From a virus, in the IMG/VR virus record IMGVR_UViG_3300042475_003740, positions 1-60,277 of that record: a DNA stretch of 60,277 nucleotides. One strand, 5' to 3'. Made by a program: the position numbers and the translations under genes. Within the stretch, counting starts at the first letter, position 1. Each line of letters begins with the position of its first letter. Positions 3,298 to 60,115 of the stretch are shown here, one piece after another. The notes beneath the pieces were generated by a model. The model had not been told where the DNA came from. It saw only the letters and a list, made by a program, of their open reading frames with translations, and searched no databases.

Positions 3298-3353
3298 GAC
3301 AGGAAGGGACAGGAAGGGACAGGGGATCGGCTAGAAATGCACGGCCCGTGCAT
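3298..3353. repeat. tandem and inverted repeats just before int (attP/arm-site candidate)
   Basis: A 10-bp unit, GACAGGAAGG, is repeated in tandem at 3298-3317 and begun a third time at 3318. Next comes an inverted repeat ATGCACGGCCCGTGCAT at 3337-3353, 39 nt before the integrase start. Phage attachment and integrase arm sites usually lie beside int and are repeat-rich, so this is the best attP candidate, but nothing here proves it. Confidence 0.35.
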
Positions 3354-3392
3354 CGGGCGCCACCACACCGCCCGCAGTTTTCGTATTCGCCC

Positions 3393-4427
3393 ATGGCCAG
3401 CGTCACCGCCCAGCGCGGCCGGCTGTACCTGCTCGCCAAGGCGCCGCGGCGCGACGGGCAGCCGGGCCTCCAGCAGACCCGCATCGCCCTGCGCCTCGAC
3501 GACACTCCGATCAACCGCCGCACCGCTGCCAAGCAGCTGCAGACCCTGGAGCGCCAGCTGGCCACCGGTGCGTTCGAGTGGGCCTACTGGCTGGATGAGC
3601 AGACCAGCGGCATCACCTGGCGCGAGGCGATAAACCGGCTGTACCGGGCGAAAGTGGTCCTGGGCCGCACCGGGGAGAGCACCTGGCAGGTCAACTACCT
3701 CGGCCGCCTGCGGCAGATCCCACCCACCAGCGCATGCACCACCGCATCGATGGCCGCCGCGCTGCAGCGCTACGACCGGGGCAGCTGCAGCTACAAGGAG
3801 CTCTTCTACCTGCTGCGGCACGTCGCCCGGCTGGCAGCGGTGCCGTTCCCTGAGGTGCCGCTACCCACCTACAACCAGGCCGCCCTGGTGGCGGTGCCCA
3901 CCGATGCGCAGATCATCGCCTGGGTGGAAACGGCGCCGAACCCATCGGCCTGGTACTGGGGGATGATGGCCACCTACGGGCTCAGGCCCCATGAGATCGA
4001 GGGCGCGGCGCTGATCGATCGGGACTACTGCCAGGTGCAGGAGGCCAGCAAGACCGGATTCCGCACGGTGGTACCACTGCCCCGTGAGTGGGTGGGCCGG
4101 TTCGCCCTGCACGATCGCCGCCTGCGGCCGGGCCTGGCGCAGCGGCCTGATGCAGTGTCGAAGTGGCTCTCGAAGGAGCTGCGCAAGCTGGCCCTGTCCT
4201 GGCGCCCCTACGCCCTGCGGCACGCCTACGCGGCTCGGCTGTGGAGCACCGGCGGCAGCCGGTTGGACATCTACACCGCGGCGCGGCTCATGGGCCACAG
4301 CCCGCTGCAGCACACGAGGACTTACCGGGCGCACATCCAGCCCCACCAGGTAGCAGAGGCGGCGGAGCGGGCGTTAGGGGGTGGGCACCACCGCCGCGAC
4401 ATTCACCCGCACCACCCGCCGACCTGA
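3393..4427 (+). CDS. int: tyrosine recombinase / phage integrase
   Basis: A 344-residue site-specific recombinase for integrating and excising the phage chromosome. The ATG at 3393 is preferred to one at 3348 because MASVTAQRGRLYLLAK is a usual SAM-like beginning. The catalytic domain is in the second half: Arg198 (GLRPHE), box II Arg276 with His277 (YALRHAYAARL), His302 (LMGHSPL) and the nucleophile Tyr311 (TRTYRAH). The usual HxxR histidine is replaced by Tyr (YALR). It converges with the regulatory operon and overlaps the end of the gene at 4374 by 54 nt. It shows that the phage is temperate. Confidence 0.92.
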   Translation: MASVTAQRGRLYLLAKAPRRDGQPGLQQTRIALRLDDTPINRRTAAKQLQTLERQLATGAFEWAYWLDEQTSGITWREAINRLYRAKVVLGRTGESTWQVNYLGRLRQIPPTSACTTASMAAALQRYDRGSCSYKELFYLLRHVARLAAVPFPEVPLPTYNQAALVAVPTDAQIIAWVETAPNPSAWYWGMMATYGLRPHEIEGAALIDRDYCQVQEASKTGFRTVVPLPREWVGRFALHDRRLRPGLAQRPDAVSKWLSKELRKLALSWRPYALRHAYAARLWSTGGSRLDIYTAARLMGHSPLQHTRTYRAHIQPHQVAEAAERALGGGHHRRDIHPHHPPT

Positions 4428-4577: not shown

Positions 4578-5029
4578 CAGCTCCCCTCCTGATACATCGA
4601 GCAGTCCCGTGCGAAGAACGACCCCTCCTCGATCGGGTCGGGGAAGCCCATTCCGCAGTGATCTGCCCGCCAGTGCCAGCACCGCTCACACCGGGGCCCA
4701 TCGGCATCTGGTGGCAGGTGCCCGTAGGGCAGCAGGTTGCGGTAGGCCAGCCCTGCCCTGATCTGGCGGATCAGCTCCGGGCCGCATTCGCGCCGGCGAG
4801 CCTCTTCTGCGTTGGTGAGCCCTGAGCGGAGGATCTCGCGGACTTCGCTGGCATTAAACCGGGGCCGCTTCGGCTGCAGGTCCTGATAGATGTCACCAGC
4901 GCGGATCTGCCGGATCAGCTCACGGCTGCAGCCGTGCTCCCGCGCCAGCGCCGCATTGGTGGCCGGTGACCCCACGATCTCCTGCACCGTCTCTGCGTCG
5001 AATCGGCGGCCACATGGCGGTTTCCTCAT
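4577..5029 (-). CDS. tandem HTH protein with Cys/His-rich tail, putative regulator
   Basis: A 150-residue protein with two copies of a roughly 45-residue HTH unit. The first runs from FDAETVQEIV to IRAGDIYQDL, the second from FNASEVREIL to IRAGLAYRNL; both contain the signature ELIRQIRAG. The C-terminal third holds CERCW and later DHC and DC residues, a possible zinc site. Two linked HTHs suit a bipartite or palindromic DNA target, so it is one candidate for binding the 18-bp palindromes of this genome (inference). Coupled to dcd by an ATGA overlap. Confidence 0.6.
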   Translation of the reverse strand: MRKPPCGRRFDAETVQEIVGSPATNAALAREHGCSRELIRQIRAGDIYQDLQPKRPRFNASEVREILRSGLTNAEEARRRECGPELIRQIRAGLAYRNLLPYGHLPPDADGPRCERCWHWRADHCGMGFPDPIEEGSFFARDCSMYQEGS

Positions 5030-5535
5030 CCCAGGCTCTCCCGGACGCGCATGTCTCCCTGGTACCGGCCCGTTTCGGCGTAGGTGCGCAGCGGTCGCTC
5101 CTCCAGGCGGCTGAACACCAACTGGCCAATCCGCATCCCGGGCCAGATCGCCACGCCATGGAGTTGGCGGCTGTTGTGCAGCTCCAGGGTCAGGCGCCCC
5201 CGGTAGCCGGGGTCCACCCAGCCAGCCATCAGGTGCTCGATGCCCTCCCGCCCACGGCTGGACTTCAGCACAAACTGAGCCGTCAGATTGCCAGGGATGG
5301 TGATGACCTCCAGGGTGCAGCCGAGCACGAACTGCCCCGATCGCATCCAGTACGGATCTTCTTCTCCGTGCGCGTGAAACGGATACCGAACCATGTCGCG
5401 GCTTTCCGCGCCTTCAATCAGCAGCTCATCGCCTAGCCGAACGTCCAGGCTGGCGGGGTTGATCAGGGCCTCATCGAAGGGGTCGACCATGCCGCAGCGG
5501 CACAGCTCGGCAATCTGAAAATCAGCGAGGTTCAT
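5026..5535 (-). CDS. dcd: dCTP deaminase (dUTPase superfamily)
   Basis: A 169-residue enzyme of the dCTP deaminase/dUTPase fold, converting dCTP to dUTP for dTMP synthesis. Visible family motifs are INPASLDVRLGDELL near the N terminus, SSRGREGIEHLMAGWVDPGY (active site, with Glu as expected for deaminase) and RIGQLVF. Length fits the family. The ATG at 5535 is chosen because it overlaps the previous stop (ATGA). Phages carry such genes to raise nucleotide supply. A bifunctional deaminase/dUTPase cannot be excluded. Confidence 0.85.
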   Translation of the reverse strand: MNLADFQIAELCRCGMVDPFDEALINPASLDVRLGDELLIEGAESRDMVRYPFHAHGEEDPYWMRSGQFVLGCTLEVITIPGNLTAQFVLKSSRGREGIEHLMAGWVDPGYRGRLTLELHNSRQLHGVAIWPGMRIGQLVFSRLEERPLRTYAETGRYQGDMRVRESLG

Positions 5536-5855
5536 TGAAAAGAGCACTCCACCAGGCGGGCGCCCGGCTCTGCGGCGGCCAGCGCTTGCCGCACCGCTTC
5601 GTGGTGCGATCGAGCAGCCAGGAACACCCGCGTCAGCGGCCGCCCCGGTACCAGCATCGTCACCCGGTACTCTCGCCCCGCGGCATTGCCAGGGGGCTGC
5701 AGGATGCGGCTGATCCGCTCAAGGCCGAGCACCTCAACACCCGGCCGCTGGCGCCGAATCGCTGCCCGGTAGTCGCGCTTGCCCCAGTCGGAGGGGCCCA
5801 CCAGGTCTTCGGTGTGCTCTTCCCCGAGAGCGTTGCGGTAAGTGAAACGCATCAT
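5532..5855 (-). CDS. hypothetical phage protein
   Basis: A 107-residue soluble, Arg-rich protein with start codons at 5855 or 5852. It overlaps both neighbours, so it is certainly part of the operon leading to dcd. No family recognised. Confidence 0.5.
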   Translation of the reverse strand: MMRFTYRNALGEEHTEDLVGPSDWGKRDYRAAIRRQRPGVEVLGLERISRILQPPGNAAGREYRVTMLVPGRPLTRVFLAARSHHEAVRQALAAAEPGARLVECSFQ

Positions 5856-6827: not shown

Positions 6828-7904
6828 TCAGTGGATCTTGCCCCAGTCGACCTGAATGGCCGGGTGCAGGGTGCCGTTGGCGATGGCGGCAGCAACCGAC
6901 GCGGGCGTCATGCCGTTCATTGCGATCGTCAGCTCGCGCTGCAGTTTTCTGGCAAGAGCCTTGCGGGCTTGCTGCACCTTTGCTTCGGCGTCGGCTCGCG
7001 CCCGTCCGGATCGCATCTGCTCGGCTAACCGCTCCGCTTCCCGGCGCTCGGCCTCGGCTGCGCGTCGCTCTGCGTCCTCCTGCGCGTGGCGAGCCGCTTC
7101 GGCCTCCGCCAGTGCCAGCGCCTCACGAGCGGCCGCAGCTTCACGCTCGATCCGTGCCTGTTGCTCAGATGCACGCTGGCGCTCTTCGGCTTCCCGGCGA
7201 ATCCGAGCTTCTTGCTCGATCGCTTGGGCAGCGGCTCGCCGGCGCTCCTGCTCGATCGCTTCCTGGCGGATGCGCTCTTGCCTTTCCTCTTCTTCCCGCC
7301 GGGCCTTTTCGGCTCGCAGGGCCTCCAGCTCGGCACGTTCGGCCTCCTGGGCCCGCAGGGTGTCCCGTAGCCCCAGCAGATGCTCGATCGCTTCCTGCAG
7401 GCGGTTGGCGCCCGCTACAGCGAACTCCTCAAGTGCAGTGGCGTCGATCGCCTCCAACTCCGCCAGCCGTGCTTCCGCCTCGTCGGCGGTGGCGACGCTT
7501 TCGGCTAGCTGAGCGATGCGGTCCAGCACTGCGCGGTGAGCATCGACGCGGGCCTGCTCCTCCGCCTCGATCGCTTTGATCGCGGTTTCGTGAGGCTCGA
7601 TCAATCCCGCCACGGATGCCTCAAGGGTTTTCGCCGCTTCGTCAACGGCGCGACCGCGTTCCAGGTGAATGGCTTTCGCGTCCTTCCTGGCCCGCTCAAT
7701 GCCGCCCTTCAGTCGCCGCAACTGGGCAACCCAGGAGCGAGCGGCCTTGTTGTCGTGCGTGTCGCGGTAGTTAAAGGCCTTGCTTTCCGCATCCTGCGAT
7801 GCGATGGCGATGTCTGCCGCCAGCGCTTCCCATCGGGTGAGCGCCGTGGTCTCGGCAACGGGAGCGATAAGGCTTTCGGTCGACATGGTGGTAGTTCCGG
7901 TCAT
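6828..7904 (-). CDS. long coiled-coil phage protein, recombination-region type
   Basis: A 358-residue protein starting at the ATG at 7904 behind a strong GGAGG. Residues 20-110 contain a conserved-looking segment (KAFNYRDTHDNKAARSWV, LKGGIERARKDAKAIH, RGRAVDEAAK). Residues about 190-320 are a very long Glu/Arg/Ala coiled coil. The C-terminal 30 residues (MNGMTPASVAAAIANGTLHP) form a small separate motif. From memory this layout is that of a phage protein often found near recT/exonuclease genes, with no proven function. First long gene of the operon ending at dcd. Confidence 0.6.
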   Translation of the reverse strand: MTGTTTMSTESLIAPVAETTALTRWEALAADIAIASQDAESKAFNYRDTHDNKAARSWVAQLRRLKGGIERARKDAKAIHLERGRAVDEAAKTLEASVAGLIEPHETAIKAIEAEEQARVDAHRAVLDRIAQLAESVATADEAEARLAELEAIDATALEEFAVAGANRLQEAIEHLLGLRDTLRAQEAERAELEALRAEKARREEEERQERIRQEAIEQERRRAAAQAIEQEARIRREAEERQRASEQQARIEREAAAAREALALAEAEAARHAQEDAERRAAEAERREAERLAEQMRSGRARADAEAKVQQARKALARKLQRELTIAMNGMTPASVAAAIANGTLHPAIQVDWGKIH

Positions 7905-8101
7905 GATTCCTCCAGTGGTGGACCCCAGAGCCAGCACGGCGGCTCTGAGCAGAACAGATGGTCGGGGCTGGGCTTGCGGCCGGGGGAGCGGCCGCGGATC
8001 GGCTTCACCCAGGCAGTCAAGCGGCTGCTCCAGATGTGCCCCCGGGGCCCGGTGGGCGGCTCGGGGGCTTGGATGCCGGCGGGGTCGTAGAAGTCGCCCA
8101 T
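7901..8101 (-). CDS. hypothetical phage protein
   Basis: A 66-residue protein, MGDFYDPAGIQAPEPPTGPR..., overlapping the following gene by 4 nt. The Trp-rich second half (HIWSSRLTAWVKPI) is the only notable feature. No family recognised. Confidence 0.45.
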   Translation of the reverse strand: MGDFYDPAGIQAPEPPTGPRGHIWSSRLTAWVKPIRGRSPGRKPSPDHLFCSEPPCWLWGPPLEES

Positions 8102-8241
8102 CAGCGCCCTCGCAGCATCGATGGGTTGCGCTCGGCAGCCGTGAGGCACTCCTCGCCAGGGTCGGGCTCGTCGTCGCCCTCGAGCGGGTCTTCATCCCAG
8201 AGCGACTCGAAGTAGCTCGGCTCGTCGTCGTCGAAAGGCAT
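8101..8241 (-). CDS. small acidic protein, first gene of the early minus operon
   Basis: A 46-residue acidic protein beginning MPFDDDEPSYFESLWDEDPL. I choose the ATG at 8241 rather than one at 8271 because the promoter's -10 (8275-8270) lies over the upstream ATG. Its leader is CCACCACCACACCACCACCC with no Shine-Dalgarno. Confidence 0.5.
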   Translation of the reverse strand: MPFDDDEPSYFESLWDEDPLEGDDEPDPGEECLTAAERNPSMLRGR

Positions 8242-8269
8242 GGGTGGTGGTGTGGTGGTGGACTTCTGC

Positions 8270-8297
8270 ATCCTACCGGATCGATTGCGAAACTGCA
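8270..8297 (-). promoter_or_regulatory. palindrome promoter driving the early minus-strand operon
   Basis: Minus strand: palindrome copy TGCAGTTTCGCAATCGAT (8297-8280), spacer CCGG, then -10-like TAGGAT (8275-8270). It has the same geometry as the copies at 31.4, 31.65, 37.2, 37.7, 47.3, 54.8 and 56.3 kb. Confidence 0.6.
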
Positions 8298-8349
8298 CCG
8301 CCCCCCGACGGCTTGCCGATTCCCGGCAGCCTGGATCGGTGGGTTGCTG

Positions 8350-8379
8350 CCCCTGCCGCACTGCGGTGGCAGGGGTTTT
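8350..8379 (+). terminator. intrinsic terminator reading rightward, no upstream + gene
   Basis: CCCCTGCC (8350-8357) pairs with GGCAGGGG (8368-8375) and is followed by TTTT (8376-8379). The direction is +, while all genes nearby are on the minus strand. The gap 8242-8497 otherwise contains only the promoter at 8270-8297 and a GGGGGC-TTCG-GCCCCC hairpin at 8471-8486. Confidence 0.5.
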
Positions 8380-8497
8380 CCTTCCTGTTGCGAAGGGTTA
8401 CACTGATCTCAGCTCACAGGGGTGGTTCCCTGCGGGCCGACACAGCACCTTCGTGTCCTGTGTGGTGGCCGGGGGCTTCGGCCCCCCAACCGCCGCA

Positions 8498-8854
8498 TCA
8501 TCCCTTCGCCCACGGCACCGCATGACCGGCTGCCACCAGGGCATCCGCCAGTAGGACTCCGTCGGCACGACGGATGATCGCCACCCAGCGGCCGAAGCTG
8601 TCCTGGAGCAGCGTTTCGGCGGCGACCGGCTCAGCGGTCAGCCACGCTTCGGCGAATTCCCTGGCGGCCTGGCCGAGCACACGGGAGGCACCCCTCATCT
8701 CCGGGCAGTCGATCCCGGAAACCCGCAGGCGCCAGCGCCAGGTGGGGCGGCAGTTGAAACCAACGTCCCGACTCAAGTTGGCCACAAAAGTATCACCATC
8801 AATCATGCGCTCCATTGCGCAGTCATAGGTAAAAACTGGAACAATTATGCTCAT
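8498..8854 (-). CDS. thermonuclease (SNase) family nuclease
   Basis: A 118-residue protein of the staphylococcal-nuclease fold. Visible motifs are MIDGDTFVAN (residues 17-26), RLRVSGIDCPEMRG (42-55), GQAAREFAEAWL and FGRWVAIIRRADG followed by LADALVAAGHAVPW, all in family order. The catalytic Asp and Arg positions appear intact. SNases cut DNA or RNA using calcium. No signal peptide is seen. It is the last gene of the structural operon; a role in host nucleic acid degradation or superinfection exclusion is inference. Confidence 0.8.
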   Translation of the reverse strand: MSIIVPVFTYDCAMERMIDGDTFVANLSRDVGFNCRPTWRWRLRVSGIDCPEMRGASRVLGQAAREFAEAWLTAEPVAAETLLQDSFGRWVAIIRRADGVLLADALVAAGHAVPWAKG

Positions 8855-8902
8855 GCCATTAACGCCAGCAACGATTCGGCTCGATCTGTTCAGTAATGCT
8901 GC

Positions 8903-40685: not shown

Positions 40686-42254
40686 TCACCGAAACCCCGG
40701 CGTCGTGGACAACCGGCGCTGGCGTGGTTTGAACGTGTCGCTGTCAGCGAACGGATCCGGCGGCGGTGCACCGGAACCGTGGCCGTAGTGAACGGTGCTG
40801 ACGCGCATGGGGCCGGTGCCCTGGGCGTAGTTGACGGCCTGGGTGAGTGAATCCACCAGGTCGTCGTAGGTGTCGCCGGGGAACTTCACCAGCTGGCTGG
40901 TGAGCACCGGCGTAAGGGGGTGGTTGCGGGGGAACCACACGCGGCCTTGATTGAACTCCGGCGTCGCAGCATTGGCCCTGGCCACCTTCCCGCCGATGGG
41001 GTTAACGGCATGCACGATGAAGCCGGCGGCAGCTCGCTTGAGCGTGGAGATCACGGCGCTGCCGTTGGCCTTGTCCTCGATCAGCAGCTCACCAAAGGCC
41101 CACGGCTTCCACTTGCCGGCGATCAGGTCCATGGTGCCGGAGAAGTCCAGGCGCTCGTTCACCAGGTCCAGCAGCCACAGGCCTGAGGCGTCCTGGCCCC
41201 AGTTGGTGAACCCCACCATGTCGGAACCGGCGGTGTCCTTGAAGGTGCAGTCGATCGAGGCGATGATCCGGGTGAACTGCCTGGGTAGTGCGGGGTCGCC
41301 TTCGCCTCCGTAGAACCGGAACATGTTCCGGCTGAAAACCGTCCCCTTGTCCGGCGTCGGCCGCTGCTGATACAGCGCCGCCCAGTCCCGGGTCGGGGTG
41401 TTGAGCTGCTTCCGGCGTGCCCAGTCCGCATCGAACCGATCGGGGTCGAGGGCCTCACCAGGCTGGCGGTCGTCCGGCTCGCGGGTGCAGAGCGCCGGCA
41501 GTGCCACCTGGATCGGTTCGGCAATGATCGGCATGTTGATCACGTGCCAGGGTTCGGCAGCATCGCCGTGGCCATCGCGCTCAAGCTCCTCGACCTGCTG
41601 CAGCAACCAGCCGATCAGGTCGGCCTCGGTCCAGCGGGTGTGGGTGATGAGCTTGCCGGCGCCGGGTTCTTCCCGGGTGTTGAGCACCGTGCTCCACCAG
41701 TCGTAGAGCTGGCGGCGGTAGGCGGCAGATTCCGCCTCGGCCCGGTTCTTGATCGGGTCGTCAACGTTGAGGAAGTCCGCCGGCAGTCCGGTGCCCTTAC
41801 CGACGCCTGCACCCCAGAACCCACCAAGGGAACCTGCAACCTTCCAGCGGCCCTTGCCTGCTGAGCTGGGGTCGAGGGCACCACCTGAGGCGACGAAGTA
41901 ATCCCTGGCCGCCTGGCCGAACTCCTCGGCGAGGGTCTGGGTGTGGGCGCCCTGGCCCCAGGTGCGGTGGGGGAAGCGGCGGAGGAAGTAGCTGGGGAGG
42001 AACCGGCTGAAGATGGTGGACTTGTAGTGCCGCGGCGGCAGCATCAGCAGCAGCCGGGGGAGGTCACCATCGGCAACACGCTGGCCGATCTCCACCAGGC
42101 GGGTGGTGTGCCGGGTGAAGGGGAACGCGGGGTAGACGGCGGCGATGTGGTCGCCGAAGGAGCGGGTGTAGGGGTCTGCAGCGGCGGGAGAGGCAACGCG
42201 GGCGGCGAGCTCCAGTGCCGCCATGCGTGATTCGAGCGTGGCGGCGGTGCTCAC
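40686..42254 (-). CDS. terL: terminase large subunit
   Basis: A 522-residue DNA-packaging motor. The GTG at 42254 is used because it overlaps the methylase stop (GTGA). The Walker A region is LLLMLPPRHYKST (residues 68-80): the usual PPRHGKS has Tyr in place of Gly. Walker B region: LPADFLNVDDPIKNR. A coupling-type segment (ITHTRWTEADLIGWLLQQVE) follows. The nuclease half starts at IIASIDCTFKDT and continues with LIEDKANGSAVI and FPGDTYDDLVDSLTQAV. Headful or cos packaging cannot be told from this. Confidence 0.88.
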   Translation of the reverse strand: MSTAATLESRMAALELAARVASPAAADPYTRSFGDHIAAVYPAFPFTRHTTRLVEIGQRVADGDLPRLLLMLPPRHYKSTIFSRFLPSYFLRRFPHRTWGQGAHTQTLAEEFGQAARDYFVASGGALDPSSAGKGRWKVAGSLGGFWGAGVGKGTGLPADFLNVDDPIKNRAEAESAAYRRQLYDWWSTVLNTREEPGAGKLITHTRWTEADLIGWLLQQVEELERDGHGDAAEPWHVINMPIIAEPIQVALPALCTREPDDRQPGEALDPDRFDADWARRKQLNTPTRDWAALYQQRPTPDKGTVFSRNMFRFYGGEGDPALPRQFTRIIASIDCTFKDTAGSDMVGFTNWGQDASGLWLLDLVNERLDFSGTMDLIAGKWKPWAFGELLIEDKANGSAVISTLKRAAAGFIVHAVNPIGGKVARANAATPEFNQGRVWFPRNHPLTPVLTSQLVKFPGDTYDDLVDSLTQAVNYAQGTGPMRVSTVHYGHGSGAPPPDPFADSDTFKPRQRRLSTTPGFR

Positions 42255-43156
42255 GCGACGGCCTCCAGCAGGCTGGGTTGGCTGCTGCCAATGCACGCGG
42301 GCGACAACCACAGCCGCTCCCGGCGCCCATTGGTGGGGTTGACGCTGTAGCCAGCCCCCCCGCCTGCCTTGCCCTCGGTGACGCTCCACCCGTGGGCCAG
42401 CAGGGCATCGTGTTCAGTGTCGTAGCCGCAGAGGATCACGCGCAGCTCACGCGGGGCGGTCAGGCACCAGGCCCGCACGGCTTCGGCCACGCCCTCGGAC
42501 GATTCGGCGTAGAGATCACCAGAGGTGGCGTAGGGCGGATCCAGGAAGATGGCCCGCGTGCCATCGCCGCCGGTGCCGCTGCGGGTGACTGATGGCTTGA
42601 CCACCCGCTCCCATGGCCCGCAAGTGATGCGCACCCGGCGGAGTCGATCGGCAAGCTGCCGCATGTAGCCCTCAAGCTGGCCTTTCCCCGCGTCCCCCAG
42701 GTGCGGCAGCTTGCGGAGGTGGCCATCGACCACCCGCCATGGACCCGGCCCAAATGGGTCGCCGATGCCGCAGGCCAGCACATACAGCCACCAGCCAGCC
42801 GCCTTGGCGTCGTGCGCTTCGGGATCACCCTCCAGCCATGCCACCAGGTCGGGCGTGCGGCGCTGCTGCAGCCAGGCCAGCCGGGCGTGATAGTCGATCT
42901 CGGCCACAGGCCCCCAGGCCGCTGCAGCTACGGCGTCAGGGCTGAGCTGGATGGCCCGCCAAGCATTGACCAGCCAGCCGTCAGCATCGTTCAGTGTCTC
43001 AACCCGCCGGCCGGTAAACGGCGGCCGGGCCAGCAGCACGGCAGCCGATCCGGCAAACGGCTCGACATAGCCGGCGGGATCACCCAGCGCCTGCCGGATA
43101 CGCGGCGCGGCGCGACGCTTGCCACCGAAGTAGGGGAAGGGAGCGGCGAGGGTCAT
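42251..43156 (-). CDS. DNA adenine methylase (Dam/D12 class)
   Basis: A 301-residue N6-adenine methyltransferase of the alpha group. The N terminus FPYFGGKRRAAP (7-18) is the D12 signature, VEPFAGSAA (31-39) is the AdoMet motif I and DPPYA (206-210) is motif IV. The enzyme probably protects phage DNA against host restriction. It sits between the small and large terminase genes and just after the remnant of another methyltransferase. Confidence 0.88.
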   Translation of the reverse strand: MTLAAPFPYFGGKRRAAPRIRQALGDPAGYVEPFAGSAAVLLARPPFTGRRVETLNDADGWLVNAWRAIQLSPDAVAAAAWGPVAEIDYHARLAWLQQRRTPDLVAWLEGDPEAHDAKAAGWWLYVLACGIGDPFGPGPWRVVDGHLRKLPHLGDAGKGQLEGYMRQLADRLRRVRITCGPWERVVKPSVTRSGTGGDGTRAIFLDPPYATSGDLYAESSEGVAEAVRAWCLTAPRELRVILCGYDTEHDALLAHGWSVTEGKAGGGAGYSVNPTNGRRERLWLSPACIGSSQPSLLEAVA

Positions 43157-50185: not shown

Positions 50186-50266
50186 ATGAACGACTGGTCT
50201 GTCACCGTTTTCTGCTGCACCGTCGTTATCTGCCTAACCCTCATCGCAATTTTTGGCAATGGCTAG
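50186..50266 (+). CDS. 26-residue membrane peptide
   Basis: ATG at 50186 behind a good site (AGGAGTTAACCG) encodes MNDWSVTVFCCTVVICLTLI then AIFGNG and stop. Almost all of it is one membrane helix with two adjacent cysteines. The upstream 58 bp are AT-rich. The next gene starts inside its last codons, supporting coupling. Confidence 0.5.
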   Translation: MNDWSVTVFCCTVVICLTLIAIFGNG

Positions 50267-50888
50267 CCCATCTACGACCATGCAGGTGGTCATCACACCG
50301 CCAAACTTCCAACGCCTTGCCATCAACATCAAGGGCACCACTCCGCTGGTGATCAACCGCTTCAGCGCGAAAGCCATGCAGATGATGCGCAAGGCCCAGG
50401 AAACCGGTAGTGCTTCAAGGTCGCGCAAGACACGTGAAGCTAAGGATTTTGATGCGTTGTTCGAGGGCGCCAAGCACATCAGCGACGACGGATGGGAGGG
50501 CATCCATGCCGCCGCGTTTCGCAACGGTGCCATCAGTGCATGTCGCGCCTGCGGGTTCAAGATGACCCACGCCAAGCTGGCCTTCACGGTTGAGCAGGAT
50601 GGCTTCGACCGTGTAGACGGAGCCCCGCTGGTCAGGCTGACAGAGGGCGAGGCTGAGCAGTGGGTAGCTCCTACCAGAAATGCCACCGGCGTGATCGATC
50701 TACGGTGCCGGCCGATGTATCGAGAATGGGGTGCAACACTCAGGATTCGCTATGACGCCGGCATGCTCACCGGCGATGATGTCGTGAACCTGGTGGCGCG
50801 GGTCGGGCTGCAGGTTGGCATCGGCGAAGGTCGGCCGGACTCGAAGATGAGCGCCGGGCTTGGCTTTGGCTTGTTTGAGATCGTGTGA
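50259..50888 (+). CDS. conserved phage protein of recombination modules
   Basis: A 209-residue protein. GTTPLVINRFSAKAMQMMRK, RKTREAKDFDALFEGAKHIS, HAAAFRNGAISACRACGFKM and the end VARVGLQVGIGEGRPDSKMS plus GLGFGLFEI match a family I know from temperate phages near RecT/ERF/SSB genes, of unproven function. An in-frame ATG at 50280 (MQVVITPPNF) is an alternative start. Followed by the Gly/His/Arg repeat frame that often accompanies it. Confidence 0.6.
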   Translation: MASPSTTMQVVITPPNFQRLAINIKGTTPLVINRFSAKAMQMMRKAQETGSASRSRKTREAKDFDALFEGAKHISDDGWEGIHAAAFRNGAISACRACGFKMTHAKLAFTVEQDGFDRVDGAPLVRLTEGEAEQWVAPTRNATGVIDLRCRPMYREWGATLRIRYDAGMLTGDDVVNLVARVGLQVGIGEGRPDSKMSAGLGFGLFEIV

Positions 50889-51097: not shown

Positions 51098-51616
51098 ATG
51101 GCCAATTATCGATTCACCAACGATTACAAAGAGTTCGATGATGAGGCGATTGACGCACAGACCGCCGGCGAGGAGCTGAAGCGCATTCATGCCGAGCGTG
51201 GCAAGTTGACCGCCAAAGATGTTGTCGATGAATCGCGGCCTGATGATGCGCCTTTGCATCCTGCATTTGAATGGAGGGATCAGGTTGCCGCCGAGGAGTA
51301 CCGGCAGATTCAGGCGTTGAACCTGATCAAAGTTGTAGAGGTGATCCAGCCCGCCGCCGACGAGCAAAAGCCGGAGCCTGCTTACGTGAAGGTGGCCAGC
51401 AAGCCGGCGCTCTACGAGCCGCCTGCCAAGGTGGTGAAGACGCCACAGTTATTCGAGTCGGCCTTTCTGCAAGCATGCGAGCGCCTCAGGGCCGCAGAGC
51501 GAGCGATGGAGCAGCTTCAGGAGATTGCCAAGCGTGAGCGGCCTGGCGCGTTCAGGCAGTGCGGCAAGGCCGTCTACGTGCTGCGCCAGCTGCAAACGAT
51601 GCTGCCGAGCCGGTGA
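51098..51616 (+). CDS. conserved phage protein of recombination modules
   Basis: A 172-residue acidic protein (MANYRFTNDYKEFDDEAIDA...). Middle section ELKRIHAERGKLTAKDVVDE, RPDDAPLHPAFEWRDQVAAE and EYRQIQALNLIKVV fits a family seen in phage replication/recombination clusters. The C-terminal half is helical (FLQACERLRAAERAMEQLQE). Leader AACCCCAAATCACC, no Shine-Dalgarno. Confidence 0.6.
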   Translation: MANYRFTNDYKEFDDEAIDAQTAGEELKRIHAERGKLTAKDVVDESRPDDAPLHPAFEWRDQVAAEEYRQIQALNLIKVVEVIQPAADEQKPEPAYVKVASKPALYEPPAKVVKTPQLFESAFLQACERLRAAERAMEQLQEIAKRERPGAFRQCGKAVYVLRQLQTMLPSR

Positions 51617-51682: not shown

Positions 51683-52960
51683 ATGCCTCTCAAGCCCTTT
51701 GCCAAAGGCCACGACCCCGTAGCGCTGGCGGCAGCGCTGGCGATCACCGACCGTGTTGCCAGGCAGGCTGCCATGGACGCCTTGCCTCGACCCGGCGCCA
51801 GGAAGTTGATCGATCCCCAGGCCGGTATCGGCGCCTTTCCGGCCCCGCGCCTGCGCATTGCTGTGCCTGAGGATGAGAGCGCCGAAACCGCCGCCGAACT
51901 GCTCGAAGTGGCTGGCGCCGCGTTGCTTAGGGATGTTCCGCTTGAGGCGATCAATATCCACCCCCTTGCTAATCGGCTGGCGCAGATCCTGGCGGAATTT
52001 GCCGTCGAGGGAACCTTTAGCACTAGCGCCAACCTGACGGCACAGCTTTGCCGGCAGCATGGTGCAGACGGCTTATTTCGAATCCATGCAGGCAGGCGGG
52101 GCCCGCGACTTGGCGCCCTGTTGGCGGCCAACGTCCCGTCAGGCTGGGGTGCGCCGCTGAGCTTTGCCTCCCGTCGGCGGTTGGGCTCGTATGGAGCGAC
52201 GGCTGACGAATGGGCTGCGCTGCAGCGGGGCAACGTGCCGCGACCTCAGTCGCTGAGTCCGCATCCCGAGCCAATCGCCACCGGCCGCGATATTGCCAGC
52301 CTCGCTGATCAGGATCCGCCGATCGAGATCCCTGATCTGATTGCCCGCCTGCTGCTGGCGGCCGGTGCGTCGTATTCCAGCCGGTTTGCCACCAGGCCAA
52401 ACGAGGTGCCGTTCGTCAGGAATGGCGGCGCTGTCGATCTGCAGTGCTCGATAGCAGAAGCGGCCGCCCCTGCGATGCGTTGCGCGTGGAAGTTGAAGTT
52501 CTTCGGCGCCCGCCGTCAGCGGCCGGAGGAGCTGTGGCCCCGCGCCATTGCTGGTGAGCTCCACCCGTCATTTCGTGAGCGGGGGCAATGGATCATCGAT
52601 CAGATTGGCGACTTCCTGCCGATGGCCTACGCCCCAGGGAGCCCCCTGCACAGCGATGATCCAAGCGGGCATGCCGTTTTGGCGGGTGTGGGCTTCACGT
52701 TGCTTAAGGCTTGGTTTGCTGATGGCCCCGTGCCATCGCTGGGCCTCGTTCGCCTCCATGAGGAGTTGGATTTGATGGCCAGCCATATGAGCTGGGGCCG
52801 AATCTGGGCTGGGATCCATAGCCCGTCATCCGTGCGTCGTGGCCTGGAGCTGGGGCAGCACTTTGCAATTCAGTTGCTCAATCGCCAGAAAGCCGAGAGC
52901 CCGACAGTGCTGGGCAATACAAGTTTCCTGAGCTATAGCGGGCAGATGCTTACTGTTTAG
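51683..52960 (+). CDS. vanadium-dependent haloperoxidase
   Basis: A 425-residue enzyme that would use vanadate and hydrogen peroxide to oxidise halide to hypohalous acid. All vanadate-site residues are visible in family order: Lys272 and Arg280 (KFFGARRQRP, 8 apart as in algal bromoperoxidases), Ser328-Gly329-His330 (DDPSGHAV), Arg373 and His379 (GRIWAGIH). Earlier, LLRDVPLEAI and a DEWAALQRG segment match the N-terminal half. Shorter than algal enzymes and without a signal peptide. It stands among recombination and lysis genes, with a junction motif upstream, as an acquired cassette. Halide preference cannot be judged. Confidence 0.88.
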   Translation: MPLKPFAKGHDPVALAAALAITDRVARQAAMDALPRPGARKLIDPQAGIGAFPAPRLRIAVPEDESAETAAELLEVAGAALLRDVPLEAINIHPLANRLAQILAEFAVEGTFSTSANLTAQLCRQHGADGLFRIHAGRRGPRLGALLAANVPSGWGAPLSFASRRRLGSYGATADEWAALQRGNVPRPQSLSPHPEPIATGRDIASLADQDPPIEIPDLIARLLLAAGASYSSRFATRPNEVPFVRNGGAVDLQCSIAEAAAPAMRCAWKLKFFGARRQRPEELWPRAIAGELHPSFRERGQWIIDQIGDFLPMAYAPGSPLHSDDPSGHAVLAGVGFTLLKAWFADGPVPSLGLVRLHEELDLMASHMSWGRIWAGIHSPSSVRRGLELGQHFAIQLLNRQKAESPTVLGNTSFLSYSGQMLTV

Positions 52961-53214
52961 CGGATGCGATTTCTTTCTAGCTTAAGTCGCAGTTCTTCAA
53001 GTTCGGCATCTTGCCGCTTGTCAACTGCGTCTTTTTCTTCTTGCTGCTTGCATAATATGGCTAGGATTTCGTTAGTTTTTGCCTGTTCAATAGCTACTTG
53101 AACCAGTTTAGCCCTGATTTCATTGCCGCCGTTGATATAGTTCCCGGCGATGGCCACCGCGATTCCTGCGCCTACACCAGCGGCCCACGGTCCGAGGCGC
53201 ATGGAATCGTTCAT
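52957..53214 (-). CDS. membrane-anchored coiled-coil protein of the lysis cassette
   Basis: An 85-residue protein: N-terminal membrane helix (LGPWAAGVGAGIAVAIAGNY) followed by a charged coiled coil (QQEEKDAVDKRQDAELEELR). Last gene of the lysis unit; a spanin-like or holin-accessory role is likely by position. Overlaps the haloperoxidase stop by 4 nt, tail to tail. AT-rich for this genome. Confidence 0.55.
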   Translation of the reverse strand: MNDSMRLGPWAAGVGAGIAVAIAGNYINGGNEIRAKLVQVAIEQAKTNEILAILCKQQEEKDAVDKRQDAELEELRLKLERNRIR

Positions 53215-54488
53215 CGCTGCACCACGATCGCCCAGCCGCTGCCGGGGCCTTCGATCATCCACCGGCGGCCGAAGTTCTTGCGGCTGTAGCGGCAGAATCT
53301 GGCGGGCTTTGGCAGCGTGGCACCCGTCACCAGGTCAGCCTCTCCAAGGGGATCGTGAACAATGACGTGGGTAGCGTCGTAGCCGACAACGATCAGCCAG
53401 TGGCCATCACCAGCCGGCGCGTCAACCGGCCCGCGGTGCAGGTAGCCGCAGGGCACCGGAAAGCCGGCGTCGATGCTGCGCTCCAGTGTGGAGAAGTCGG
53501 CCCGTTTCGTGAAGTCCGCTTGCACCTCATACGACCCCAACGCCTGCACCTGGGCAATCGCGCTGGTGGTATCGCCGAACTGCCTGACCCTGGCCAGGTA
53601 CTGGTCGTCGCCGTTGGGTCCGTGAAGGATGCCGGGCCTGAGGCACGCCAACAGCATGGCGCAGGAGCTGCTGAAGCACATCCGCCGCGCCTGGTCGGTG
53701 GCGCTGTCGAGCTGCGCGAAGTACGGCACCGGCAGGGGGTTACGGCTCCCTGCCGCTGGCGGCACCACCAGCACCGGCTGTTGCACCTGCATGCCCATGG
53801 GGATCGCCGCCACGGCCCGCTGGTAGCAGGCCTCTCGATCGGCCAGGCCGTTGGCCGGATCGCGGCCGTTCACCCTGGCCGACACCTTTCGCACCGTGGC
53901 CCCCGCATCCACCAGGGCATTGATGCCGTTCTGCTGCCACCACAGCCCCGCGGATGTGAACGGATACCTGGCTGCGACGTAGGCGGCACCGGTCATCACG
54001 CCGGGATCTCCCACGGCATCAGCCAGCCGCTGGTAGTTGAAGCGGCCGGTGATCTGCAGCACCCCGGCCCCCTTGAACCGCGGCCCATCACCACGCTGGG
54101 TGTTGCCCAGGTCCGCCCGACCGTTGTAGGCGTCACCGGAAGCGAGCTCCAGCATCCACCGGAGTCCACCGCTTTCGTGCGCCACCTGCGCGAGGAAGTG
54201 CCGGATGCGGGCGGTGGTGGTGATGTCGAACCGCCGGAGGCAAGCGTTCAGATCGACCAGCTGCTCAGCCGTGGGCGCCCGACCGAACACGGCGGTAGCC
54301 TGGGCCATGCTCACCATGTCGTCGGTGCCCGGCTTCGGTGGCACTGCTGAGATCCAGATGCTGCCCAGCTCGCCATCGTTCGCCAGCGCCCCGGGCGGCA
54401 GGTGGGCCTCCACCGCCTCCCAGAACGCCCGGTGATGGGAGAGCTGCAGATCGCTGTGTCGTACGCAGTCCAGTAGGCGGCGAGTCAT
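53211..54488 (-). CDS. endolysin: GH19-like lysozyme fused to C39-like peptidase
   Basis: A 425-residue two-domain cell-wall lytic protein. Residues about 60-230: MAQATAVFGRAPTAEQLVDL, HFLAQVAHESGGLRWMLELA with catalytic-type Glu105, FKGAGVLQITGRFNYQ, the glycoside hydrolase 19/lysozyme pattern. Residues 250-425: papain-like C39 peptidase, with CFSSSCAMLL (Cys271/276), GHWLIVVGYD (His363) and VIVHDPLG. Residues 1-55 are an extra head of unknown role. Overlaps holin-like and spanin-like genes on either side. Confidence 0.8.
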   Translation of the reverse strand: MTRRLLDCVRHSDLQLSHHRAFWEAVEAHLPPGALANDGELGSIWISAVPPKPGTDDMVSMAQATAVFGRAPTAEQLVDLNACLRRFDITTTARIRHFLAQVAHESGGLRWMLELASGDAYNGRADLGNTQRGDGPRFKGAGVLQITGRFNYQRLADAVGDPGVMTGAAYVAARYPFTSAGLWWQQNGINALVDAGATVRKVSARVNGRDPANGLADREACYQRAVAAIPMGMQVQQPVLVVPPAAGSRNPLPVPYFAQLDSATDQARRMCFSSSCAMLLACLRPGILHGPNGDDQYLARVRQFGDTTSAIAQVQALGSYEVQADFTKRADFSTLERSIDAGFPVPCGYLHRGPVDAPAGDGHWLIVVGYDATHVIVHDPLGEADLVTGATLPKPARFCRYSRKNFGRRWMIEGPGSGWAIVVQR

Positions 54489-54766
54489 GGCAGATCAGGC
54501 CCGGTGCGCCACCGGTCGGCGCCGTCGGTGGCGGGTGCGTTGTCCTCGGGGCGGCGCAGGGCAGGGTTGAGGGTGTTGAAGCCGGCCTTCCAGCCGACAG
54601 CGGCACCACCTCCTGCGCCAAACCCGATGCCCATCAGGCTGCCGCCGGTCATCCAGCAGCCATCAAAGGTGGCGCCCTTGTTGAACCGGCAGTCAGCGAT
54701 GTAGGCCGCACCGACGACCACGCTCAGCGATGCAGCGGTCATCACGGGGGCGAGGGCAGCCTTCAT
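54485..54766 (-). CDS. holin-like membrane protein
   Basis: A 93-residue protein with hydrophobic segments at about residues 5-25 (LAPVMTAASLSVVVGAAYIA) and 42-60 (SLMGIGFGAGGGAAVGWKAG) and a polar tail. It precedes the endolysin with a 4-nt overlap. Holin is the natural call from position; the sequence itself is not diagnostic. Confidence 0.5.
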   Translation of the reverse strand: MKAALAPVMTAASLSVVVGAAYIADCRFNKGATFDGCWMTGGSLMGIGFGAGGGAAVGWKAGFNTLNPALRRPEDNAPATDGADRWRTGPDLP

Positions 54767-56322: not shown

Positions 56323-57417
56323 ATGGCATTCATCAAGGCCACCAAGGAGGCGGCCAAGCTCCGAGCGGCGATCTTTGGCCCGTCTGGAGCCGGCAAGACC
56401 TTCACCAGCCTGCGCCTTGCTACCGGCATCGGCGGCAAGATCGCTCTGATCGACAGCGAGCGCCGCACCGCCAGCAAGTACGCCGATCGATTCGACTTTG
56501 ACGTATGCAACCTGGAATCAGGCGAGCACCGCGTTGCTGACTACGTGAAGGCGATCCGTGAAGCCGGGCAAGCCGGCTACGACGTGCTCATCATCGACAG
56601 CCTCACCCACGCCTGGCAGCAGCTGCTGGCCGAGGTTGACGCCCTGGCCAAGGCCAAGTATCGGGGCAACACCTGGTCGGCCTGGAGCGACGGCACCCCG
56701 CTGCAGCGCTCACTGGTCGACGCAATCCTCGACTTTCCCGGCCACGTGATCGCCACCATGCGATCGAAGACCGAATGGACGACCGAGGCCAGTGGAAACG
56801 GCAAGTCGGCGCCGAAGCGAGTCGGCCTCACCCCGGAACAAGGCAAGGGCATCGAGTACGAGTTCGACATGCTGTTCGAGCTGTCGACCGAGCACATCCT
56901 CACCGTGATCAAAGATCGATCCGGGAAGTTTCAGGATCGCTGCATCACTGATCCGTCCGAGGCCCTTGGCTCTGAGATGGCCGCCTGGCTTGACGATGGC
57001 GCCAAGCCGATGCCCGTGACCGAGCAGATCCGCGCCAAGGCCCGCGCCGTGGGGCTGACCGCATTCGGCATGCAGGCCCTGCTGGTGCAGTGCAACAGCG
57101 CTCAACCCCTGGAGGCCATGGCCGCCAAGCTCCAGGCCCAGATCCTGAACCAGGCACTGAACAGCCCCGCCGCTATCCAGGCCTGGAATGCAGGGCAAGA
57201 CAGCCGCACCGGGGAGGCCCTGGGGGTGCAGGCTGAGGAGGCTGTCGACATGCCTGAGCGGGCGCCGGCGGCAGCGCTGGCCGTGAACTCCACGCAGGAA
57301 GCACTTGGGGACGACCTGCACGACAACGGCTTCCTGCCTGACGACCCCGACGAGCAGGACGACCCCGACGACCTACCGGCAGCCTGGTCCCTACCGGCTG
57401 ACGCTGCCGCTGCCTGA
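56323..57417 (+). CDS. RecA-like AAA ATPase (Sak4-type recombination protein)
   Basis: A 364-residue P-loop ATPase. Walker A FGPSGAGKTF (18-27), Walker B-like YDVLIIDSLTHAW, and later VIATMRSKTEW and FDMLFELSTEH, the order of phage Sak4/RecA-core proteins that promote strand annealing with SSB. The C-terminal 100 residues are acidic and low in complexity (DDPDEQDDPDDLP) and probably contact partners. First gene of an operon with ssb next. Confidence 0.8.
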   Translation: MAFIKATKEAAKLRAAIFGPSGAGKTFTSLRLATGIGGKIALIDSERRTASKYADRFDFDVCNLESGEHRVADYVKAIREAGQAGYDVLIIDSLTHAWQQLLAEVDALAKAKYRGNTWSAWSDGTPLQRSLVDAILDFPGHVIATMRSKTEWTTEASGNGKSAPKRVGLTPEQGKGIEYEFDMLFELSTEHILTVIKDRSGKFQDRCITDPSEALGSEMAAWLDDGAKPMPVTEQIRAKARAVGLTAFGMQALLVQCNSAQPLEAMAAKLQAQILNQALNSPAAIQAWNAGQDSRTGEALGVQAEEAVDMPERAPAAALAVNSTQEALGDDLHDNGFLPDDPDEQDDPDDLPAAWSLPADAAAA

Positions 57418-57443: not shown

Positions 57444-57905
57444 ATGAACCTCGTTTCCCTAATTGGCCGCGCAGGCCGTGATCCTGAACTTCGTTATTTT
57501 GAAAGCGGCACGATGGTCGCCAATCTTTCCCTAGCGGTCAACGCTTACAAGCGTGACGAAGCTCCGGATTGGTTCAACCTGGAAATCTGGGGCAAGCAGG
57601 CCCAGATTGCGGCCGACTACGTGCGCAAGGGCAGTCAGTTGGCTGTCTACGGACGGATCAACCAGCAAAAATGGACCGATCGCGCCAGCGGCGAAGAGAA
57701 GTCAAAATGGGTTGTGACCGTTGATCGGCTGGAGCTGCTGAGCAGCAAGCGCGACAACGAAGGCGGGGAACATCAGTCGCAACCGCAAGGCCAGGGCCGG
57801 CCTGCCCCGAAGCCCGCCCCCACCAAGCCCGCCGCTGCCGCCACCCCCGGCGGCTCAGCGTGGGAGTCAAGTGGCCCCATCAGCGAAGAGGAGGTGCCCT
57901 TCTGA
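57444..57905 (+). CDS. ssb: single-stranded DNA-binding protein
   Basis: A 153-residue SSB. OB fold at residues 1-105 (MNLVSLIGRAGRDPELRYFE, WFNLEIWGKQAQIAADYVRK, GSQLAVYGRINQQKW), a Gln/Pro/Ala linker and the acidic tip EEEVPF that binds partner proteins. Acts in phage replication and with the Sak4-like ATPase upstream. Confidence 0.92.
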   Translation: MNLVSLIGRAGRDPELRYFESGTMVANLSLAVNAYKRDEAPDWFNLEIWGKQAQIAADYVRKGSQLAVYGRINQQKWTDRASGEEKSKWVVTVDRLELLSSKRDNEGGEHQSQPQGQGRPAPKPAPTKPAAAATPGGSAWESSGPISEEEVPF

Positions 57906-58401: not shown

Positions 58402-58664
58402 CAGCCATCCGAATCCCCATTCGTCGTTTCGTTGCCCTGCGGCCTGCGGTTCGTGATCGCACCCTGCTCGACTACCTCGATTTGGCAGTGCTGGCGCCTG
58501 AGCCTGGCCGCCTGCGCACTGACGAACTGTGCAAGCGCTGGCGCTGTAGCCAGCCCACCGTCAGCCGCCGGCTGGCAGCGGTCAACGCGGCGGGCCTTGC
58601 TGAGATCAGCAATGGCCACGGCGCCTACGCCGTCCACTGGCTCGATCGGTTGGAGGTGGCGTGA
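58398..58664 (+). CDS. small winged-helix DNA-binding protein
   Basis: An 88-residue protein: LDYLDLAVLAPEPGRLRTDE then LCKRWRCSQPTVSRRLAAVN is a clear HTH with recognition helix, followed by a strand pair (GLAEISNGHGAYAVHW) as wing. A regulator or replication-associated DNA-binding protein. Coupled to both neighbours. Confidence 0.6.
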   Translation: MTAIRIPIRRFVALRPAVRDRTLLDYLDLAVLAPEPGRLRTDELCKRWRCSQPTVSRRLAAVNAAGLAEISNGHGAYAVHWLDRLEVA

Positions 58665-60115
58665 TGTTCAACCCCGACTTCTACCCCACCCCGCCGGAAG
58701 TAGCGGCCGAGATGCTGGACCCGCTCGACCTGCGGGGCAAGACGGTGCTGGAGCCCAGCGCTGGCAGCGGGAACCTGGTGCGCGAGTGCCTGGATCGTGG
58801 CGCGGCGGAGGTGCTGTGGTGCGAGAAGGAACCGCGGCTGCGGAACATGCTCACCAGCCTGCGAGGCGGTTACTACCTGGGGCACGACTTCCTGCAGGTA
58901 GAGGCCCACCAGGTCAGCCACGTGGATCTGATCGTGATGAACCCGCCGTTCTCGGCGGATGAGGCCCACATCCTGCACGCCTGGGAGATCGCCCCGCCGG
59001 GGTGCGAGATCGTGGCCCTGTGCAACTGGGCCACGGTCAGCGACTGGCGCGGCAACCCGTATACCAGCAGGCCCGGCACCCGGCTGCAGCAGCAGCTGAG
59101 CCATCTGATCGAGGCCTACGGATCGAAGGAGCCTCTCGGGGAGTGCTTCACCACCGCCGAGCGGCCCACCAAGGTAGCCGTGGGGCTGGTGCGGCTGACG
59201 AAGCCAGGCAGCCGGCCTGGTGGTGATGAGTTCGAGGGGTTCTACCTCGGGCCAGATGAGATCGAAGCGCAAGGCGAAGGGCTGATCCCCTATCGCCGCA
59301 GCCGGGACATTGTGAACCGCTACGTGGAGGCCTGCCGCATCTACGACCAGCAGGTGGAGGCCGGCACCCGTCTGCGGGGTGTGCTGGATGGCTTCTTCGG
59401 CCAGGAGCTGGGCCTGCAGGTCACGATCGAGGGTGCACCGGTGACACGCAACCGGTTCAGGAAGGATCTGCAGAAGGCCGCTTGGAAGCACGTCTTTGCT
59501 GAGTTCCTACCGGCGCAGCTGGCCACGTCACAGCTGGCCAAGGACATCAACGCCTTCGTAGAGAAGCAGAGCCGGATTCCGTTCACCGAACGGAACATCT
59601 ACCGGATGCTGCAGATCGTCGCCGGCACGCAGGAGCAGCGGGTGGACCGTGCGGTAGAGCAGGCGATCGACACGCTGACCCGCCACACGGCCGAGAACCG
59701 CTACGGCGTGGAGGGCTGGGTGACGAACTCGGGCTACATGCTGAACCGCCGGTTCATTCGGGCCTACATGGCTGAGGTCTGCTGGTCGGGCAAGGGTGTG
59801 AACGTGAAGAGCTACGGCAGCCAGGCGGATGAGATCCAGGATCTGATCAAGGCGCTGTGTTTTATCACCGGCCGGAACTACGCCGAGGTGGGCCAACCCA
59901 CTAAACCTGCCGATGGTGTGTTCTGGCCGGGTCAGTGGTACGAGTGGGGCTTCTTCCGGTTTCGTGCCTACAAGAAAGGCACCGTCCACTTTGAGTTCAA
60001 GGACGAAGAAGTCTGGGCCGCCGTGAATGCCCGCTACGCCCGCATTAAGGGCCAGGTGCTGCCGGAGCAACACCGCCGGCCGAAGCAGCGCAGGCGGCAT
60101 GAGGTGGCGGCATGA
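58664..60115 (+). CDS. N6-adenine methyltransferase with DUF4942 domain
   Basis: A 483-residue protein. The methylase part: FYPTPPEVAAEMLDPL (start), VLEPSAGSGNLVRECL (AdoMet motif I, about 30-45), DLIVMNPPF (catalytic NPPF, about 89-97). From about residue 190 the DUF4942 region (RSRDIVNRYVEACRIYDQQV, VTRNRFRKDLQKAAWKHVFA, FFRFRAYKKGTVHFEF) follows, a fusion widespread on phages and plasmids. ATG at 58664 overlaps the previous stop. Third DNA methylase of the genome. Confidence 0.8.
   Translation: MFNPDFYPTPPEVAAEMLDPLDLRGKTVLEPSAGSGNLVRECLDRGAAEVLWCEKEPRLRNMLTSLRGGYYLGHDFLQVEAHQVSHVDLIVMNPPFSADEAHILHAWEIAPPGCEIVALCNWATVSDWRGNPYTSRPGTRLQQQLSHLIEAYGSKEPLGECFTTAERPTKVAVGLVRLTKPGSRPGGDEFEGFYLGPDEIEAQGEGLIPYRRSRDIVNRYVEACRIYDQQVEAGTRLRGVLDGFFGQELGLQVTIEGAPVTRNRFRKDLQKAAWKHVFAEFLPAQLATSQLAKDINAFVEKQSRIPFTERNIYRMLQIVAGTQEQRVDRAVEQAIDTLTRHTAENRYGVEGWVTNSGYMLNRRFIRAYMAEVCWSGKGVNVKSYGSQADEIQDLIKALCFITGRNYAEVGQPTKPADGVFWPGQWYEWGFFRFRAYKKGTVHFEFKDEEVWAAVNARYARIKGQVLPEQHRRPKQRRRHEVAA

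Follow-up and report, generated by a model that had tools for sequence, protein, structure and literature searches.

The window analyzed here (60,277 bases, the full length of its IMG/VR record) contains a gene whose product belongs, by sequence and predicted fold, to the bromoperoxidase-type vanadium haloperoxidase (VHPO) family, with halide oxidation as its putative activity. VHPOs use peroxide and halide to generate hypohalites and organohalogens and are found in algae, fungi, and bacteria. Taking all lines of evidence together, we consider it probable that a phage, probably one with a picocyanobacterial host, encodes a genuine bromoperoxidase-type VHPO that selection has maintained in the viral lineage to which it belongs. 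The gene is an intact open reading frame of 425 codons that runs from ATG to TAG with no internal stop; the gene and its site residues are as follows.

51683 to 52960, plus strand: VHPO gene, bromoperoxidase type, 425 aa
52487 to 52489, plus strand: Trp269, the i-3 residue ahead of the catalytic Lys, Trp in 14 of 14 viral rows of the alignment
52496 to 52498, plus strand: Lys272, predicted vanadate site, Lys in 50 of 50 rows
52520 to 52522, plus strand: Arg280, predicted vanadate site, Arg in 50 of 50 rows
52649 to 52651, plus strand: His323, His in 49 of 50 rows, among them all 14 viral rows
52664 to 52672, plus strand: Ser328-Gly329-His330, motif 2, SGH in 6 of 6 short and AGH in 8 of 8 long viral rows
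52799 to 52801, plus strand: Arg373, predicted vanadate site, Arg in 49 of 50 rows
52817 to 52819, plus strand: His379, predicted vanadium ligand position, His in 50 of 50 rows
52829 to 52831, plus strand: Ser383, which replaces the motif-3 Asp (His+4)

As a lone phmmer query against PDB sequences, the window VHPO retrieved vanadium bromoperoxidases (VBPOs) at an E value of 5e-12. A profile built from 50 family rows, consisting of the window protein itself and its relatives, matched the VBPOs of Acaryochloris marina (6.2e-136) and Corallina (1.8e-135) across the greater part of their last 500 residues, and every one of the 18 PDB sequences with an E value under 0.01 was a haloperoxidase. Iodo- and chloroperoxidase entries scored no better than 6e-5 with this profile, and Curvularia ∼1e-4. 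These scores bear out the original prediction that the gene encodes a VHPO, and the residues it had named (Lys272, Arg280, Ser328-Gly329-His330, Arg373, and His379) lie at the positions it gave and all fall in the catalytic columns of the family. The Lys, the two Arg, the Gly and His of motif 2, and the His of motif 3 were conserved in all 14 viral rows of the alignment.

Structure prediction, which had been suggested as a check, put the VBPO fold far above that of the acid phosphatases. An AlphaFold model of the window VHPO (pLDDT 88.8, pTM 0.91) aligned with the Ascophyllum VBPO (VIA) with a Z score of 34.3 and an rmsd of 2.5 over 404 residues; Z was at least 29.2 among the ten VBPO entries listed and at most 16.2 in the class that followed. 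Enzymes of the chloroperoxidase/NapH type (Curvularia and Streptomyces) aligned with Z scores of 11.5 to 15.9 and are thus not the closest, and this type was rejected as the class, as the Curvularia profile score had also indicated. Bacterial acid phosphatase (PAP2) was likewise rejected as the class, since the acid phosphatases reached a Z of 14.0 at most and the Pfam PAP2 match of the window VHPO (7.3e-5, 23 bits) fell below the gathering score of 27.2. Among four other viral VHPO proteins scanned, only that of record L204 passed this score (43 bits), and the window VHPO matched no PHROG family at E ≤ 1.

The window VHPO resembles the VBPOs of Ascophyllum nodosum, Corallina, and A. marina (AmVHPO) in predicted fold (Z 29 to 34), in a profile match of nearly full length, in the catalytic residues, and in the position of His323, which we take to be that of the second-sphere His of the bromoperoxidase type. 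It differs from them in length, with 425 residues compared to 556 to 666 in the solved chains, and the structural identity is 22 to 26%. AmVHPO is described as a dodecamer in a passage of PMC11871015. Trp269 of the window protein is the Ascophyllum-like residue at a position where AmVHPO and the Corallina enzyme have Arg. According to the same passages of PMC11871015, this i-3 residue affects chloride use; it is Trp in the enzymes of Ascophyllum and Curvularia, which chlorinate, and Arg in those of A. marina and Corallina, but the A. marina R425W substitution changed little. By hydropathy, the one measure used, the window protein has no clear signal peptide (top 19-residue value within residues 1 to 60, 1.06), as had been predicted.

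We then asked how the gene is distributed among viruses. A search of 50,697 phage records gave no match at E ≤ 0.01 for either the window VHPO or the long-form protein of L211, and the lone window VHPO retrieved no relatives from viral contigs or genome contigs, nor did a first profile from viral contigs. Relatives were instead reached through a related phage gene, which led to record L158. In IMG/VR, a short form of 402 to 449 aa is present in 8 records (the window, L203, L204 [the same as L158], L205, L206, L207, L209, and G421), and a long form, 512 to 532 aa in those measured, in 13 (L208, L210 to L216, L333 to L336, and L341, the last partial). Because L206 and L207 are identical and the L204 and L205 proteins are 95% alike, the eight short-form records represent six distinct lineages. 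These record counts are lower bounds because the scans look for short peptide patterns. An AlphaFold model of the long-form L211 protein, made from a 5-row alignment, was discarded (pLDDT 37.4); by sequence, the viral group as a whole is a member of the bromoperoxidase-type VHPOs.

The viral VHPO branch occurs in phages of different types. Phage genes found near the VHPO encode DnaB, capsid, and endolysin in L203, terminase in L204, L205, and L208 (the last also with RecT and a virion protein), an endolysin part in L206, L207, and L209 (the last also with a tail gene), a T4-type RNA ligase/tail-fiber protein and a helicase in L210, and a portal in L215. The neighbors in L212 to L214 fell mainly in PHROGs with no assigned function, and the single L211 protein tried gave no match. 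Few relatives of the window phage have the short form: in 50 related records, picked mainly by length from 198 loci (75 were picked, of which these are 50), it was present in 2, one of which (G002) was known beforehand, so that 1 of the 49 records without prior knowledge (G421) had the gene. Likewise, of 36 loci with 2.5 kb or more of sequence past the conserved upstream gene, 1 had the short form, at a place other than that site.

In a 41-row tree of chosen rows, the 11 viral rows lay on one side and the 30 cellular rows opposite, with support of 100/99, and in a 70-row tree the 14 viral rows were grouped with an SH-aLRT of 99; both trees are unrooted, and the algal and A. marina enzymes and the acid phosphatases are absent from them. 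For the 70-row tree, 60 of 77 cellular loci were extracted, and near-duplicates, fragments, and frame-broken matches were omitted. On these sequences, the viral VHPOs are a branch apart from the sampled cellular ones and so far consist of viruses only, although a closer cellular lineage may have been missed because the cellular rows came via L204 and three plasmid protein patterns. Close viral VHPO pairs are under purifying selection: in the four that differ, the NG86 dN/dS ratio was 0.10 to 0.17 (dN and dS, 0.042 and 0.351 for L204/L205, 0.031 and 0.303 for L215/L216, 0.110 and 0.776 for L212/L214, and 0.166 and 0.959 for L213/L214).

Three side observations concern the wider family. A third match of the short-form profile to the 50 related records, in G444 (only E 2.9e-9; L344, positions 385 to 2022, on a contig related to L176), is a different, PAP2/VHPO-like protein of 545 aa with SGH and R-G-H motifs; it was left out of the 21 records and may represent another type of haloperoxidase or belong to flanking host DNA. 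On a Rhizobium phaseoli plasmid typed as mobilizable (L002, positions 7398 to 8867), a VHPO relative annotated as hypothetical has AbiGi-family and Shedu genes within ∼1.5 kb and so is surrounded by defense genes. The motif-2 His, in the column of window His330, is absent from 6 of 36 cellular VHPO-like rows (Bradyrhizobium L238, Mesorhizobium L239, Microvirga L246, cyanobacteria L243 and L280, and Armatimonadetes L283), and some cellular members of the family may therefore not be haloperoxidases.

The window also carries phage genes for terminase, portal, major head, scaffold, tape-measure, sigma factor, methyltransferase, single-stranded DNA-binding protein (SSB), and endolysin. Those that bear on the setting of the VHPO gene are listed here.

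3348 to 4427, plus strand: integrase-like gene (PHROG E 5e-13; Pfam match below threshold)
40686 to 42389, minus strand: terminase large subunit, top named relatives in Synechococcus phages
50253 to 50888, plus strand: conserved upstream neighbor, phrog_4652, function unassigned
51098 to 51616, plus strand: conserved upstream neighbor, phrog_15946, function unassigned
52957 to 53214, minus strand: partner gene, 85 aa from the ATG at 53214 (101 aa if translation began at the GTG at 53262)
53211 to 54488, minus strand: endolysin with a C39-like C-terminal part
54485 to 54766, minus strand: small protein upstream of the endolysin, possible holin by position only
56323 to 57417: AAA gene, top PHROG with function unassigned, weaker match (8e-9) to Sak4-like annealing proteins
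57444 to 57905: SSB gene

The VHPO had been placed in the recombination/lysis region of a temperate phage. The AAA gene, the SSB gene, and the endolysin all lie near the VHPO, in support of this reading of the region, and a homologue of the small protein at 54485 to 54766 adjoins the endolysin in G421 as well. A temperate life style is likely because of the integrase-like gene, which is its sole basis. No sigma-70-like promoter was found between 51000 and 53600, and the promoter and terminator scan was uninformative.

The host is probably a picocyanobacterium, to judge from the relatives of the terminase and endolysin genes. The terminase is 38% identical to those of Synechococcus phages S-CRES3 and S-CBS2, followed by those of Staphylococcus phages at 35%, and Synechococcus phages accounted for 12 of 12 endolysin matches among those listed (of 1,044 records). 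Terminase relatives at E ≤ 1e-20 were present in 18 of 386 cyanobacterial genomes, the top one with 41% identity over residues 73 to 522. The 35% identity to Staphylococcus phage terminases tempers this Synechococcus signal, and two other genes disagree with it: the AAA gene is nearest to Myxococcus phages and the DUF4942 gene to flavobacterial phages, and the latter had no match in the 386 cyanobacterial genomes in a search run without a positive control. psbA was found in none of the 19 VHPO-bearing viral records, many of them fragments, and photosynthesis genes thus lend no support to the host assignment.

Two further genes recur in these phages. The DUF4942 protein (window positions 58661 to 60115), which has a methyltransferase-like N-terminal part, is 42% identical to a flavobacterial phage protein and 72 to 79% identical to the proteins of the window's viral relatives; in L206 its gene lies directly upstream of the VHPO. 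Relatives of dCTP deaminase are located at 5026 to 5547 in the window, at about 7676 to 7939 in L204, at about 1644 to 1907 in L205, and at 9864 to 10379 in L209; in 3 of the 8 short-form records such a relative lies within about 1 kb of the VHPO, and in the window it is distant.

In all eight short-form records, the VHPO is adjoined by the partner gene, which lies tail to tail on the opposite strand within 37 bp. The two genes overlap by 4 bp in the window, by 11 bp in L204 and L205, and by 20 bp in L209; they abut in L206 and L207 and are separated by 10 bp in L203 and 37 bp in G421. Because they are convergent, they do not form one transcript. The partner proteins (73 to 111 aa) have a hydrophobic N-terminal segment and a C-terminal part with an invariant Cys and a QD motif, and from the sequence we read the partner as a small membrane protein whose C-terminal part is coiled-coil-like. 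For the L204/L205 pair, NG86 dN and dS of the partner gene were 0.012 and 0.425. No family claims the partner, as PHROG and Pfam gave chance-level matches only, and the L209 copy matched none of the phage records. Over 342 sequences, in which all long-form loci were included, a partner profile found only VHPO-bearing records and the cut end of L059; over the 50 related records it found only the 2 with a short VHPO (G421 and G002), sequences of both of which are contained in the profile. In the 386 cyanobacterial genomes, the same profile gave four chance-like matches (E 0.004 to 0.01). The L059 homologue occupies positions 1 to 258 on the minus strand at a contig end where the VHPO side is missing, and the genes that follow it (VRR, AAA, SSB, and methyltransferase) match those of the window.

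Vanadate would be held by K272, R280, S328, G329, and R373, with H379 as the vanadium ligand and H330 as the acid/base, if the roles known from the family apply. H2O2 would convert the bound vanadate to peroxovanadate, which would oxidize bromide or iodide, and perhaps chloride, to hypohalous acid. For the use of the enzyme, we tentatively offer as one possibility that photosynthetic H2O2 is consumed late in infection or during lysis of a phototroph, with hypohalite formed near the envelope and the membrane partner assisting or guarding. It is more doubtful that the short VHPO and a membrane-anchored, one-Cys coiled-coil partner constitute a dedicated two-part phage system that makes reactive hypohalite at the cell envelope of a phototroph during infection or lysogeny. 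In such a system the hypohalite might time or spread lysis, bar superinfection, or kill neighbors, and the invariant Cys of the partner would sense or quench the oxidant. The uses first suggested, removal of peroxide, killing of competitors, and interference with quorum sensing, are further candidates.

Several features of the window copy itself bear on whether it is active. It is altered at 24 of the 65 columns with 90% or higher conservation across 44 other rows and is the most diverged of the 14 viral rows, with L206 next at 21 columns. It has Asp for Tyr326, Pro for Arg381, and Ser383 for the motif-3 Asp; Lys364 and Asn368 are also replaced, and the segment before motif 3 that L203 to L206 carry is missing. 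The His+4 residue is Ser in the window, L203, L209, and G421 and Asp in L204, L205, L206, and 8 of 8 long rows. Because the Asp of R-G-H-D is Ser383, we grade the window copy only as a diverged relative that may work like a bromoperoxidase-type VHPO. These replacements, more numerous than in any of the 13 other viral rows, would suit a decaying or repurposed pseudo-enzyme among otherwise active viral copies, as would the Arg that its nearest relative, G421, has instead of the Gly of R-G-H. We nevertheless think this reading unlikely, since the open reading frame is intact and all first-shell residues are kept. Moreover, G421, a separate record with a VHPO of 50% identity, has the same short loop, HSDDPSGH motif, and Ser at His+4, so the changes belong to an older lineage rather than to fresh decay; L209 likewise has the short loop and the Ser. 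Misassembly or sequencing error of the window copy was ruled out by the same independent record. It is less likely again that the phage protein is mainly a phosphatase, in which the oxyanion site common to VHPO and PAP2 proteins would be filled by phosphate when cell vanadate is low, an activity from which a phage of P-limited cyanobacteria might profit. The two classes have the core fold and residues in common, which accounts for the acid phosphatase alignments; a vanadium chloroperoxidase phosphate-intermediate entry (3bb0) was among the structures matched, and PAP2 was the sole Pfam match of the VHPO proteins scanned. However, both the fold (Z 34 versus 14) and the profile matches (18 of 18 haloperoxidases) are of the VBPO type, and the window, L203, and L209 proteins are without the Asp of the R-G-H-D motif, which is given in a passage of PMC4859513 as common to VHPOs and acid phosphatases.

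The position of the partner raises the alternative, which overlaps the explanation we prefer, that the VHPO and its partner are mainly a device for lysis or antagonism, with a spanin- or holin-like partner and a peroxidase freed at lysis against competitors or superinfection. In the window the ATG of the partner overlaps the endolysin end by 4 bases, as its 3′ end does that of the VHPO; the partner also adjoins the endolysin in L203 and is ∼0.7 kb from it in L206, and Rz-like spanin profiles matched it weakly (E 0.017 to 0.15). We hold this to be rather unlikely. The spanin matches are chance-level, Pfam gave no match to a spanin family, and spanin was dropped as a name for the partner. The distance between partner and endolysin varies, reaching 3 kb in L209 and 6 kb in G421, and in L204 and L205 it is the large terminase gene that follows within ∼1 kb. 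This variable spacing makes a role in lysis alone less likely; set apart from any endolysin gene found in these four records, the partner is more than just another component of the lysis cassette. The VHPO-free relative L146 retains the upstream gene and an endolysin part with neither partner nor VHPO, and the VHPO was absent from 12 of 12 endolysin-homologue loci of the first survey. PADLOC defense models matched none of five proteins at E ≤ 0.1. That the gene is ordinary host cargo, a cyanobacterial VHPO acquired recently by chance, appears very improbable. Relatives of the L204 protein do occur at E ≤ 0.001 in 25 of the 386 cyanobacterial genomes, but the best-scoring of these are only 35 to 36% identical over their length, and the viral rows group on their own and come from phages of different types.

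Several known proteins come close to the preferred reading, a genuine phage-borne VHPO kept by selection. A table in PMC10427571 includes a native vBPO of marine Synechococcus sp. CC9311; this enzyme is of the same type and comes from the probable host group, but it is the bacterium's own. VirX1 of cyanophage Syn10 is called the first viral halogenase in passages of PMC8407142 and PMC6864650; it too is a halogenating enzyme encoded by a cyanophage, but it is flavin dependent, belongs to another family, and uses no vanadium. In a structural search of BFVD, giant viruses gave matches with E values of 3e-20 to 2e-18, namely PAP2 superfamily proteins of Hokovirus HKV1 and Yasminevirus and an uncharacterized Sylvanvirus protein. 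These VBPO-like proteins are 20 to 23% identical to the window VHPO and come from viruses of eukaryotes; the four BFVD matches at E ≤ 0.001 included no phage protein. Mycobacteriophage TM4 is said in a passage of a review (PMC9317374) to make proteins resembling haloperoxidases. Our search of the literature on haloperoxidases and bromoperoxidases in phages, prophages, and giant viruses, which did not extend to preprints and most subscription journals, yielded no report of a phage VHPO. The TM4 protein is presumably an alpha/beta-hydrolase of the cofactor-free kind and unrelated. The original prediction that no phage copy had been characterized agrees with this result and with the absence of matches in the phage records searched, and has to be qualified by the cyanophage halogenase of another class and the giant-virus structural homologues. 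Our analysis goes beyond that prediction in showing that the viral VHPOs form a branch, that a partner gene is conserved beside the short form, and that the window copy has diverged.

With a viral VHPO branch, phages would have a second halogenating chemistry, based on vanadium, besides that of VirX1, and viral infection would be tied to halogen cycling. The pairing of the short form with its partner is a direct handle on the purpose of the enzyme, and viral VHPOs, at about 425 aa, would offer compact enzymes for biocatalysis.
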